Positions 9,852 to 41,747 of a DNA stretch of 64,000 nt are shown here, piece after piece. The stretch comes from Paludisphaera rhizosphaerae. GTDB taxonomy: Bacteria > Planctomycetota > Planctomycetia > Isosphaerales > Isosphaeraceae. The position numbers and the translations under genes were made by a program. Position 1 is the stretch's first letter. Every line of letters starts with the position of its first letter. The stretch lies in the NCBI RefSeq assembly GCF_011065895.1, contig NZ_JAALCR010000023.1, positions 1 through 64,000 of the forward strand, given 5' to 3'. The notes beneath the pieces are model-generated. The model did not search any database, was not told where the DNA came from, and worked only from the letters and a program-made list of their open reading frames with translations.

Positions 9852-9877
9852 CGAGCCCGGTCCGATCGGTCCATAGC

Positions 9878-10033
9878 GGCCTTCCCCCCTCGCGGGGGCA
9901 GGTGGCCCGAAGGGCCGGATGAGGGGGGATCGGCTTCGCGTTCAGAGCGACCGCCGGATGCTTATCCGACGCCGGTCGTCCCCCTCATCTGATCGCTTCG
10001 CGATCTGTCTTCCCCCGCGAGGGGGGAAGACCG
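9878..10033. repeat. REP-like palindromic intergenic element, copy 1
   Basis: About 156 bases with mirrored ends: CGGCCTTCCCCCC at the left and GGGGGGAAGACCG at the right. Inner hairpins are GGCCC-GAA-GGGCC, GATCGC-TTC-GCGATC and CCCCC...GGGGG, and ATGAGGGG pairs with CCCCTCAT. A second copy lies at 40636-40793 with the same order of motifs. It sits in the convergent gap between the ACP and GH3 genes, where it could also terminate both transcripts. Confidence 0.8.
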
Positions 10034-16948: not shown

Positions 16949-18055
16949 TTACCGAGGCCGAGGCGCGGCCTTCCGCAGGTCGTCGTAGCTCATGCCCGTG
17001 AAGAAGCTCTGAACCCAGGAACTCATGGCGCCGGGAGCGTTCGCGACGGCCGCCATGAATCCGCCCGGCGGATTGACCTCGTCGCGAAGTTGCAAGAGTT
17101 GGCGATAAAGGACGTTGAAGACCTCACGCTGGCGGGGAGTCGAGGCCACGCCGAAGCGAAGGTTGAACGCATTCATGAAGCTCAGCAGATCGCCGAGGGT
17201 GGCGTCCGGACGCTTGCCGACGCCGGACACGAAGGACTCGATATTGGGGGCCTTGAGCATCGCGATCAGGCCGTGTAGAGCTTTCAGGTAACGGTCCGCC
17301 TGTTTGAGTTCGATGCTGTTCGGGGGCAAGATCCCCAAAGCCGTGTCCTCGGTCTTGTAGAGGGCTTCCAGGAGTTCGCGAACGGTCGCGGGGTCCGGGG
17401 CGTCGTCCTTCTCGACCTGATCGAGGATTTTCTGATCGAGCGATCGGATGGCCTCGAAGTGGGCGGTGAATTCGGGCCTGAGCAAGGGAGCGGGCCGATC
17501 CCCCGTGGCGAGTTGATGGAGACCGACCGTGATCGCGGCGGCGTTGTAGCGGAACGGAATCTCGCGGATGACGTCGGCTCCGATCCTGACCTGCGCCGCG
17601 CGAAGCGCTTTGGCGTAGACCCTGGGGTCGTTGATCTCCTCGAGGGCGACGTTCAACGCGTCGCCTTGAGTGACGTCGCGCGGTTCGGGATTGTCCCGCA
17701 GCCGTTTGCGGATCTGATCAAGTTGCAGATTGGTGTTCTCGCGTCGTCGTTGCATTCGACGGAGATACGCCTGGTTCGCCTGCCTCTGCGATTCGTGGAC
17801 GTATTCATTCCACCGTATGACCGTATCCGTGTTGATCGAATCCGCGATAGCGCTTTGCTTGTTGTAGAAGCCCGCCCCCTGGGCGAACGCCCCGAGACCT
17901 CTCGCTTGATCCCCCGCCGCAGTGGCGCCGCCCCAGCCTCCCCATCCCCAATTGCCGAACCCGCCGGGAAAACCCCACTGCGCCCGGGCCGAAACCCCTA
18001 GCATGGACCATAGGACGCAGCAAAGGCCGAACGTCAATCCAGGTCGCTTGAGCAT
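16949..18055 (-). CDS. Secreted hypothetical protein
   Basis: 368 residues that I do not recognise. Residues 1-26 form a signal peptide (LTFGLCCVLWSMLGVSARAQ). A Gly/Trp/Phe-rich stretch follows (WGFPGGFGNWGWGGWGG), then a long helical, charged domain with QRRRENTNLQLDQIRKRLR and a C-terminal region ending with SSWVQSFFTGMSYDDLRKAA. GGAG five bases before the ATG at 18055 decides the start. It is monocistronic and convergent with the HAD gene. Secretion is clear; the function is unknown. Confidence 0.72.
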   Translation of the reverse strand: MLKRPGLTFGLCCVLWSMLGVSARAQWGFPGGFGNWGWGGWGGATAAGDQARGLGAFAQGAGFYNKQSAIADSINTDTVIRWNEYVHESQRQANQAYLRRMQRRRENTNLQLDQIRKRLRDNPEPRDVTQGDALNVALEEINDPRVYAKALRAAQVRIGADVIREIPFRYNAAAITVGLHQLATGDRPAPLLRPEFTAHFEAIRSLDQKILDQVEKDDAPDPATVRELLEALYKTEDTALGILPPNSIELKQADRYLKALHGLIAMLKAPNIESFVSGVGKRPDATLGDLLSFMNAFNLRFGVASTPRQREVFNVLYRQLLQLRDEVNPPGGFMAAVANAPGAMSSWVQSFFTGMSYDDLRKAAPRPR

Positions 18056-18403
18056 GTCGTCTCCAGGCTTCACGGTTTAAATCGTGATCAAATGAATGAT
18101 GCGTGAGTTCGGCGCGACGCCGGGCGTCGTGCGATTTGAAACGCTCCGCGGAACCCGAGCGAAACCTTGATCGCTTCCTCCAGCCGGGCGATCGAGTCAC
18201 GCGAGCAGGCCTCCAGGGATTCTCCTCCATTCGTACGAAATCCCAAGAAGCATGTCCGGAAATGAATGAGAATCTCCCCGGGCCGGACGATTCGGCGTGA
18301 TCGCCTTGCGAGATTCCTCGGCCTGATCGACGTCTTCGAGATTCAACATGCCAGACCTCGACGGCGCTTGCGAAAAGACGGGCCGTTTCGACTGGAGTTG
18401 CGA
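18056..18403. other. Intergenic region, no recognisable gene
   Basis: 348 bases between a minus-strand secreted-protein gene and a plus-strand frameshifted gene. I see no RNA gene or convincing promoter boxes. The stretch TCACGGTTTAAATCGTGA near 18064-18081 is a short AT-rich palindrome that could be an operator or part of the promoter of the secreted protein. Confidence 0.4.
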
Positions 18404-18944
18404 ATGGCGGCGGTTTCTCAGGCGTCCCTGGACTTGACGGCGACCCGACTCGACAGGCTGGAGGCGGCGAATCGGGGGCTGAGGCGACGGGGCTCGGCGA
18501 CGACGGCGGCGCTCGTGAGTCTGGCAGACGCGGCGTTCCTGGTCGGGGCCGCGCAAGACAACGACGGTGCCTTTCGCGAGGTCTCGGCCGAATCGATGAC
18601 GATCCGGGATAAGGACGGCAAGCCGCGGATGCAGATCACCACGGGCGAGGTCGGCGTCGAGTCCCATAGCCTTCCGGACCCGAAGGGGACCGAGCGTATC
18701 CGGATCGCTCTCAAGGAAGTTTATGAGCAACCACCAGGAGGGCAACGTCCGCGTGGCGTCCGAGACGTCGAGCGACGGCCAGGGCTTTCTGCGGTTCCTC
18801 GACAAGGGAGGCGAGCGGCGAGTCACCGTCGGCACCTTCCCCGACGGCACCGCGGGACAGGTCGTCCGCGACAAGGACGGAAAGGTCTGGATCATCAACT
18901 CAACCAACGCCGATGGCTCCGTCGTCCTGGAAGCCGACAAGTAA
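18404..18944 (+). pseudogene. Frameshifted hypothetical protein with RDKDGK repeats
   Basis: Two adjoining frames look like one gene broken by a single-base indel near 18719-18735. The first part starts at 18404 with GGAG six bases upstream. It has a membrane segment (TTAALVSLADAAFLVGAA) and continues to SAESMTIRDKDGKPRMQITT and IRIALKEV. The second frame, readable from 18723 to the stop at 18944, continues in the same style: GNVRVASETSSDGQGFLRF, GGERRVTVGTFPDG and VRDKDGKVWI. Both halves carry the D-K-D-G-K beta-repeat pattern of a family of uncharacterised bacterial proteins. It could be a real pseudogene, a sequencing error, or programmed frameshifting; the first two are more likely. Confidence 0.62.
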
Positions 18945-18955
18945 ATCAGGATCGG

Positions 18956-19765
18956 TTATTCGTCGTCCTCGAGCCCCAACGCGCGGAGCCTGGCCGCCAG
19001 ACGATCCGCGCGTTGCCTTTCCGCTTCGGCACGCTCCTCGGCCGATTGTGCGCGGCGCGAGGCCTCCAGGGCGCGACGGGCCTCGTCGTTGGCGCGACGG
19101 GCTTCCTCGTCGGCGCGATGGGATTCCTCGTTGGCGCGGCGGGCCTCGGCGTCGGCGCGGTGGTGGAGTTCACGGTAGGTCTCGAAGACGCGGCCGTCGG
19201 GGCGGTGGATGACCAGGGCTTCTTTGCGGCGGGGGGCCTCGAAGGTCACGCCGAGGCGGGGGCTCCGCCAGCCGTCCATCCGGGGAATGGATTGCAGGCC
19301 GGCTTCGTTGCGGCGCCAGCCGAAGAGGTCGCCGGTCTTGGGCTTGTAGTAGTAATACTCCTCGACGCCATGCTCGTCGTAAAACTGAAGCTTGCGCTCC
19401 ATCTGTTTTTTCGTGTTCTTCGGCGAGTGGATCTCGAAGACGACGTTCGGCGGGGAGCCTTCCCACCACTGCTTGTAGGAGTGCCGGTCGGCCTTGGGGC
19501 GGTTGAAGGCGACCATGACGTCCGGGGCCATGCACTGCTTCGGATCCCCCTCGACGGCGTACCAGAGCATGTCGCCGGCGATGAAAACGTTGGGGTCGTC
19601 TTCGAAGAGACTTTCGAGTCCTTCCTTGATCGTCACCATCCAGTTGAACTGCGTGGAATTGTCGGCCATCGGTTTGCCGTCGCTGTCAGGGTACCTCGGG
19701 TCGTAGGGATCGAGGAACGGCGGGTCCATCAGGACCAGCGGCGGCGTGGACTTGGCAATGCTCAC
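18956..19765 (-). CDS. Uma2 family endonuclease-like protein with coiled-coil tail
   Basis: 269 residues. The N-terminal 185 match the Uma2 (DUF820) group of PD-(D/E)XK nuclease-fold proteins: CMAPDVMVAFNRPKA, then VVFEIHSPKNTKKQME and YDEHGVEEYYYY. From about 195 to 262 lies an alanine/arginine/glutamate-rich coiled coil made of degenerate RRANEE/RRADEE repeats. A paralogue lies at 60318-61220 with the same architecture. The family is expanded in planctomycetes and cyanobacteria and its job is unknown. The start at 19765 follows from the common N-terminus. Divergent from the sigma factor gene. Confidence 0.88.
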   Translation of the reverse strand: MSIAKSTPPLVLMDPPFLDPYDPRYPDSDGKPMADNSTQFNWMVTIKEGLESLFEDDPNVFIAGDMLWYAVEGDPKQCMAPDVMVAFNRPKADRHSYKQWWEGSPPNVVFEIHSPKNTKKQMERKLQFYDEHGVEEYYYYKPKTGDLFGWRRNEAGLQSIPRMDGWRSPRLGVTFEAPRRKEALVIHRPDGRVFETYRELHHRADAEARRANEESHRADEEARRANDEARRALEASRRAQSAEERAEAERQRADRLAARLRALGLEDDE

Positions 19766-40582: not shown

Positions 40583-40635
40583 AGACGTGACTTGCGTTTT
40601 GGCTGACCGTCTTGAATCGCGGAGGCTCGCCACAA

Positions 40636-40793
40636 CGGCCTTCCCCCCTGGAGGGGGAAGGTGGCCCGAAGGGCCGGATGAGGGGGACGACCGCTGTCGC
40701 ATGTGGAACAACCATCGGTTACGTGTCCGACGGGGGTCGTCCCCCTCATCTGACCGCTGCGCGGTCTGTCTTCCCCCTCCAGGGGGGAAGACG
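40636..40793. repeat. REP-like palindromic intergenic element, copy 2
   Basis: About 158 bases homologous to 9878-10033: left end CGGCCTTCCCCCCTGGAGGG, inner GGCCC-GAA-GGGCC, ATGAGGGGG pairing with CCCCCTCAT, stem GACCGC-TGC-GCGGTC and CCCCCTCCAGGGGG, right end GGGGGGAAGACG. It directly precedes the DUF1559-like gene and lies in the open frame upstream of its start. Confidence 0.8.
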
Positions 40794-40820
40794 TCGCTCA
40801 TCGAGGCCCCAACAAGGCAC

Positions 40821-41747
40821 GTGACCATTGGCGTCGCGCGTCGACCCCGCCGGGGCGTTTCGCTGGCCGACGTCGTCGTCGTCCTCTTCCTGGTCGGGGT
40901 CGTGTTCCTGTTCATCATCATGGGGATGACGCGCGCCCGCGAATCCGCCCGGCTGACGATCTGCCAGCGCAACCTGGCCCAGATCGGCCAGGCGCTGACC
41001 TATTACGACGGCGCCTTTCGCGGTCTGCCCACAGTGTCCTTACCCGTCGCTGCGAATGAGCCGATGGATAAGGCCCCGCCAGGACCGTTGAAGACGATGC
41101 TCGCCGCTCTGGGCGTCGCCGACTTCATCGGCATCAACGTCGAAATGAAGAACCTGCCGGAACTTCATGCGCCGACGCCGGAGGGGAGCGTCCCCGTCGC
41201 GGGGTTCTTCTGTCCCAACGACGTCGAGGCCCTGGCCAGGCGTTTCTCGTCGCCGGTCAGCTATCGAGCGTCCGTCGGTTCCGACCTGGGCGGGACGGAC
41301 GGCGCGTTCGCTGTGGGTCGCGGCGCGACCTTGAAGGAGGTTGAGCGCCGGGACGGCCTGAGCTTCACCGCCGCGTTCGCGGAACGCCTCCTCGGCGACG
41401 GAGGCCGCGAACGCTCGCGACAGAACTACGTCGTCGTCGATCATGTCGGTTCTGGCGAGAGTGCCAGCGGGGCGGCTGGCTCCTGGCGAGGCGACGCGGG
41501 ATCGACCTGGATCCCCGCCGATTTCCGATACACGCTCTATACCCACGCCCAGCGTCCCTGGGCCAACGTTTCTCAGGTCGCGACCGACGGCCGCACCTCG
41601 GACATGTCGGCTTCCAGCTCTCACGTCGCCGGGCTGAACCTGCTGATGCTGGACGGCTCGGCTCGCGTCGTCACGCCTTCGATCGCCCCCGAGGTCTGGC
41701 GAGCTTACGGCTCGATCGGCCCCGAACCCACTGCACCAGAGAATTGA
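40821..41747 (+). CDS. DUF1559-like pseudopilin protein with variant signal
   Basis: 308 residues from a GTG at 40821. The N-terminal RRGVSLADVVVVLFLVGVVF is a prepilin-like signal in which the usual F(T/S)LIE is replaced by VSLAD (Val at +1, Asp at +5). The membrane helix is followed by ARESARLTICQRNLAQIGQA, as in DUF1559 proteins, and the C-terminal AGLNLLMLDGSARVVTP matches the family's DGSVR motif. The upstream open frame to 40587 is made by the REP-like element, so I exclude it. Start uncertain: only AAGGC lies nearby. Three bases before the HAD gene, so one transcript. Confidence 0.75.
   Translation: MTIGVARRPRRGVSLADVVVVLFLVGVVFLFIIMGMTRARESARLTICQRNLAQIGQALTYYDGAFRGLPTVSLPVAANEPMDKAPPGPLKTMLAALGVADFIGINVEMKNLPELHAPTPEGSVPVAGFFCPNDVEALARRFSSPVSYRASVGSDLGGTDGAFAVGRGATLKEVERRDGLSFTAAFAERLLGDGGRERSRQNYVVVDHVGSGESASGAAGSWRGDAGSTWIPADFRYTLYTHAQRPWANVSQVATDGRTSDMSASSSHVAGLNLLMLDGSARVVTPSIAPEVWRAYGSIGPEPTAPEN

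Follow-up and report, generated by a model that had tools for sequence, protein, structure and literature searches.

The stretch of Paludisphaera rhizosphaerae DNA analyzed here (64,000 nt of contig NZ_JAALCR010000023.1, referred to as the window, in which all positions of the copies are given) contains two copies of a palindromic element of about 155 nt. These copies represent, with high confidence, a mobile and non-autonomous palindromic element. They are probably derivatives, similar to miniature inverted-repeat transposable elements (MITEs), of a one-gene palindromic element carrying a DUF559 gene. We consider it likely that the same palindromic ends form a unit with DUF559, and a driving role of DUF559 in the movement of the element, judged from sequence comparison, is evenly balanced.

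The folded repeat is present in more than 100 copies in the window genome (8.05 Mb, 110 contigs). A search of this genome with the pattern GGATGAGGGGG-N40..70-CCCCCTCATC gave 103 matches, some of them one place read from either strand, whereas the reversed pattern gave none. The repeat occurs far beyond chance, and the motif is not limited to the two copies from which it was first described. A profile search of a 1.18-Mb sample, picked around copies rather than as a random part of the genome, detected 175 loci, 121 of them near full length. Each of the five other genus genomes searched carried at least 65 copies. The length of the element depended on the species, with 155 nt in the window genome, approximately 172 to 179 nt in genomes G001 and G002, 174 to 186 nt in G005, and 175 to 200 nt in G004. 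At the orthologue of the first window site, no element was present in G001, G002, G003, and G004, and G005 carried a CCCTCTCCC/GGGTGAGGG-type cousin; at the orthologue of the second, all five relatives lacked the element. Since the relatives have no copy at either window site, the copies are lineage-specific insertions. Further sites differed from G001 in the same manner, the cleanest being L036:6557, where 9 nt were found in G001 instead of 182.

The link to DUF559 was obtained in the genus, where all strong stand-alone DUF559 matches have element halves nearby. The E. coli control of this family search gave no match. The loci were arranged as follows:

L233, L234, L235, L239, L240, and L236/L241: DUF559 gene with one element half on each side
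L238: DUF559 gene with two flanking halves in the same direction
L242: DUF559 gene between two short elements
L243/L246: contig-end fragment with one side visible

L236/L241 and L243/L246 are broken copies, with matches in two pieces and an internal stop in L243. In L072, the DUF559 gene also lies between element halves. Weak DUF559 matches in long proteins were not flanked by element halves. Non-orthologous DUF559 units could be aligned across the element, with the match stopping at its limits (L235 and L239, 72% over 608 nt; L239 and L301, 72% over 556 nt). When the subterminal 30 + 30 nt of L240, L235, and L239 were compared with the loops of short copies, scores of 21 to 22 were obtained, against a null of 11 (standard deviation, 1.8). 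Correspondingly, the short-copy loops in relatives resemble subterminal parts of the DUF559 elements of G001 and G004. Terminal inverted repeats are common to the short copies and the DUF559-bearing form in relatives, but are not clear in the window genome.

Two further observations concern these loci. In L072, a 253-amino-acid open reading frame (ORF) is also enclosed by element halves (17000 to 19060) and is perhaps cargo. At a contig end of Paludisphaera soli, the DUF559 gene of L301 has an internal stop and is a decayed copy.

A similar arrangement was found outside the genus. When GTDB genomes were scanned, 80 DUF559 loci were obtained; they came from Planctomycetes, Proteobacteria, Chloroflexi, Acidobacteria, and Verrucomicrobia, among others. 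Inverted repeats with a score of at least 20 flanked 24 of 74 DUF559 genes and none of 444 control windows from the same loci; at a score of at least 15, the counts were 34/74 and 10/444. In a separate second sample, 9 of 22 DUF559 genes were flanked, compared with 2 of 126 controls. The motif flanked 15 DUF559 genes on both sides and a further 24 on one side, compared with 2 of 524 control windows. All 15 of the DUF559-locus genomes that were pattern-searched, 4 of them taken from loci with low repeat scores, hold between 8 and 222 repeat halves, with none in the reversed control. The DUF559 units are compact (about 500 to 700 bp for most), and their ends fall among the GGGAGAGGG..GGGTGAGGG repeats, which have been described as intrastrand triplex motifs whose origin is unclear. 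The unit CCCTC.CCC-loop-GGG.GAGGG-GGGTGAGGG is present in many DUF559-element ends from other phyla and in cousin copies in the window genome; in the window copies, the GGATGAGGGGG variant, into which a hairpin is inserted, takes the place of this plain unit. E. coli has a single DUF559 gene, ycjD, which is followed by triplex motifs and matched in 3365 of 5426 E. coli genomes. No clean empty ycjD site was found, and the three ycjD-less loci examined have other genes beside sapF. On plasmids of Sphingomonas parapaucimobilis (L364 and L365), the suf and transhydrogenase operons are each interrupted by an inserted DUF559 gene.

The predicted structure of the stand-alone DUF559 protein was confident (pLDDT, 86.5). 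Its best fold matches were 3hrl and I-Bth0305I (3r3p), both also found by profile, with Vsr among the weaker ones. According to this model, DUF559 is a PD-(D/E)XK-fold nuclease akin to Vsr and the homing endonuclease I-Bth0305I. The putative catalytic residues E26, D55, E66, D68, H72, and D79 showed conservation of 99% or more across 86 sequences. The ratio of nonsynonymous to synonymous substitution (dN/dS) was 0.07 to 0.22, and thus the gene is under purifying selection. The Caulobacter DUF559 protein VsrA was reported to trigger the SOS response (PMC12907096).

The core of the element consists of two inverted halves. Each comprises an end arm rich in C and G, a small hairpin, and an inner arm, GGATGAGGGGG. 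The preliminary description of two elements sharing one order of motifs agrees with the positions determined here, all on the forward strand:

9877 to 10031, +: core of copy 1, matched over its full length by the model derived from 57 copies of the same genome
9881 to 9901, +: left outer arm of copy 1, pairing with 10009 to 10029 (helix 1 of the 57-copy alignment)
9904 to 9916, +: left hairpin of copy 1, GGCCC-GAA-GGGCC, with G-C changed to C-G on both sides in 5/57 copies
9917 to 9927, +: inner arm of copy 1, GGATGAGGGGG, pairing with 9980 to 9989 as a perfect 10-nt inverted repeat (helix 3)
9928 to 9979, +: variable central loop of copy 1, species-specific in sequence and length
9980 to 9989, +: inner arm of copy 1, CCCCCTCATC, from the inverted-repeat search
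9991 to 10005, +: right hairpin of copy 1, GATCGC-TTC-GCGATC (alignment columns 130/140: CG 40, UA 17)
10009 to 10029, +: right outer arm of copy 1, from the inverted-repeat search
40636 to 40792, +: core of copy 2, a match to the 57-copy model
40640 to 40660, +: left outer arm of copy 2, pairing with 40770 to 40790 at 100%
40663 to 40675, +: left hairpin of copy 2, GGCCC-GAA-GGGCC, identical to that of copy 1, as first described
40677 to 40686, +: inner arm of copy 2, pairing with 40741 to 40750
40752 to 40766, +: right hairpin of copy 2, GACCGC-TGC-GCGGTC, from the inverted-repeat search
40770 to 40790, +: right outer arm of copy 2, from the inverted-repeat search

The central loop is the position occupied by DUF559 in the long form of the element seen in relatives. 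In copy 1, the inverted repeat 9877-9901/10009-10033 matched at 92%. As single-stranded DNA, this copy had a predicted folding energy of -61.5 kcal/mol (z = -6.7), which none of 200 shuffles equaled. Either strand can, to judge from its sequence, be folded into a branched, cloverleaf-like structure.

The exchange of a T-A pair for C-G on both sides of the right stem, first noticed between GATCGC/GCGATC (9991-9996/10000-10005) in copy 1 and GACCGC/GCGGTC (40752-40757/40761-40766) in copy 2, is one of several such pairs. Across the 57 aligned copies, 96.0% of pair cells were paired, against 93.6% in shuffled alignments (0/500), and both-sided changes were found in 71 cells, against 33.8 (0/500). 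Covariation was likewise detected, with a score of 0.081 against 0.050 (0/500). The proposed conserved folded structure with paired changes was thereby supported. A weaker signal came from counting the pairs that had changed on both sides (7 against 5.2 shuffled; 27/500). Pairing was kept through both-sided changes in four of five helices, namely, the outer stem, both hairpins, and the base of the central arm; besides columns 130/140, the changes included 132/138 (GC 48, CG 4), 29/41 (GC 49, CG 5), and 15/156 and 17/154 in the long outer stem. One paired change common to 17 copies does not necessarily represent 17 events, and shared descent inflates these counts. The outer stem occurs mainly as TCGC/GCGA and TGGA/TCCA types, and the ends agreed in 38 of 45 copies with only these types (p = 1.7e-6), which could be produced by either template switching between arms or selection.

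Copy 1 is situated between convergent genes, one of which is a carrier-protein gene, and copy 2 is located within an ORF. The ORF of the gene after the second site (40587 to 41747) reads through the inserted element in frame, and the element there may have added residues to the protein or shifted its start codon. Copies elsewhere nest inside cousins and bear other insertions. In L040 (5900 to 6400) and L039 (around 6466), the repeat lies within the loop of a CCCTCTCCC/GGGTGAGGG-type cousin, and in L040 it is itself split by a ATGGCCACGC repeat. A small element with CAATACTGTTCGGCACG ends was inserted in the hairpins of the repeat in L047 (8880 to 9115), L081 (17770 to 17995), and L080 (1185 to 1410); it has an apparent 10-bp target duplication (CCGCCAGCGG in L080) and contains a CTTCTCCCC-type cousin. 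In addition, contigs C6, C10, C14, C22, C40, and C48 of G000 start or stop within an element copy, and because several contigs begin or end in this way, the copies probably break the assembly.

The element was first likened to the repetitive extragenic palindromic (REP) sequences and bacterial interspersed mosaic elements (BIMEs) moved by REP-associated tyrosine transposases (RAYTs). The BIME-like character was retained, since the element is palindromic, intergenic, built of two inverted halves, mobile, and spread genome-wide in many copies, and no target duplication was recognized. The proposed mover was not. A search for Y1_Tnp found a single gene in the genome, with no element within 1.5 kb, and across the genus the element flanked 0 of 14 Y1_Tnp loci. 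G002 has no Y1_Tnp gene yet carries at least 65 elements, and the gene between element halves is DUF559, not Y1_Tnp. When the alignment was read by eye, neither half showed an unpaired GTAG tag, and GTC stood beside the arm, though not as a consistent unpaired CGTC tag. Spread by a RAYT is accordingly very improbable. A structured RNA kept for its function, such as a terminator or an mRNA-stabilizing hairpin, would fit the strong fold, the covariation, and the intergenic position, with copy 1 between convergent genes. This explanation is equally hard to credit, because orthologous sites in relatives lack the element, the loops are species-specific, copy 2 lies inside an ORF, and the Rfam search of the window returned no match. 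A fixed RNA gene was ruled out by the absence in relatives.

It is also conceivable that no dedicated enzyme is involved and that the hairpin or triplex structure of the palindromes itself stalls replication and causes template switching and gene conversion, by which they spread or vary. Related G/C-rich triplex motifs have been tied to genome instability, with their origin called unclear (PMC4666352), and template switching can yield paired changes between arms. We consider this improbable in view of insertions at unrelated sites, a sequence kept end to end, and the association with one gene family. A more serious alternative, although still unlikely, is a MITE-like element moved by another transposase, with DUF559 as a passenger or accessory caught between the ends, for example, for hairpin processing. 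It would account for the two species with many copies and no DUF559 gene, for the apparent recent immobility of the long form, and for L072, where two enclosed genes suggest that more than one may lie between halves. However, it is DUF559 that lies between the ends, both within the genus and across several phyla, and the size of most units leaves space for little else.

Several results weigh against descent of the window copies from a DUF559-driven element. The main difficulty for a driver role is that no stand-alone-type DUF559 gene was found in G002 and G005, each with at least 65 copies. The window genome's own DUF559 elements had no subterminal sequence in common with the short-copy loops of relatives (L238, 10.7 against a null of 9.9; L233, 13.2 against 10.5). 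No near-identical DUF559 units were found at two sites, and several units were inherited at one place (in Sphingomonas, in Caulobacter, and between the window genome and P. soli); for these reasons, the long form appears not to have moved recently. Beyond the genus, 40 of the 74 DUF559 loci had no clear inverted repeat (score below 15), and flank pairs from mismatched loci reached a score of 20 in 17 of 444 cases, the ends being mutually related. The co-occurrence of strong DUF559 matches and the repeat among 149 genomes (14/23 versus 7/126; p = 3.7e-9) is strong and favors the link, but it comes from a count that ignores kinship. No target site duplication was recognized by eye at the sites compared with G001, and the ends of the element can be placed only to within 10 to 30 nt. 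As to a larger palindrome of which the element would be a part, the flanks of relatives' copies (L102 to L141) showed more self-complementarity than chance predicts (z = -5.3), which would fit an element that reached further or picked palindromes; those in the window genome did not (z = -0.6).

Descent from a DUF559 element would involve a long form with the same halves as the short copies and one DUF559 gene in the central loop. DUF559 would recognize the folded ends and cut or nick there, this cutting would lead to copying or movement via host repair, and the enzyme would act in trans on short copies that had lost the gene. More broadly, the stand-alone Vsr/EDxHD-type nuclease DUF559 might be the mobility enzyme of an unrecognized class of one-gene elements, with the GGGAGAGGG..GGGTGAGGG repeats, window copies included, as non-autonomous offspring; this proposal is tentative, with the balance slightly against it.

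Like MITEs, the short copies have retained the two ends of a longer form that carries a gene, together with some of its subterminal sequence, but the parent gene here encodes a nuclease not known as a transposase, and target duplications were not recognized. The short intergenic palindromes, inverted pairs, and high copy number recall REPs, BIMEs, and REPINs; in contrast, the window element, at about 155 nt, has halves longer than a 20- to 40-nt REP, showed no GTAG tag, and has DUF559 rather than an adjoining RAYT. The RIME/ABC palindromes of Rhizobiales may also resemble it. Such intergenic mosaic palindromes have been mentioned in alphaproteobacteria (PMC2573895). Both GTAG- and CGTC-tagged REPs are known, and CGTC REPs were reported without a dedicated transposase (PMC3733652, PMC3116915). 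EDxHD/Vsr-type homing endonucleases, among them I-Bth0305I (PDB 3r3p) and those of group II intron homing endonuclease genes (PMC12350094), share with DUF559 a related nuclease fold and carriage by a selfish element. DUF559 differs in that it consists of one nuclease domain, lacks a separate DNA-binding domain as well as an intron or intein, and has many unrelated insertion sites. Finally, Holder et al. (2015) described the intrastrand triplex motif TM/TMECO, naming no driver (PMC4666352). Motifs of that superfamily lie around DUF559 genes here; the window element differs in its extra hairpin per half and its GGATGAGGGGG inner arm. No link between DUF559 and repeats was found in the literature on DUF559, with most subscription papers outside the search.

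The presence of DUF559 between palindromic ends in many bacteria suggests that a type of mobile element not yet recognized underlies a very common repeat. These common bacterial palindromic repeats, known for triplex structure and genome instability, have so far been without a known origin (PMC4666352), and a gene traveling between repeat ends offers a testable source for them. It also gives meaning to DUF559, a widespread family without known function. If the proposal is true, a nuclease of the homing and mismatch-repair type would join the enzymes that move DNA.
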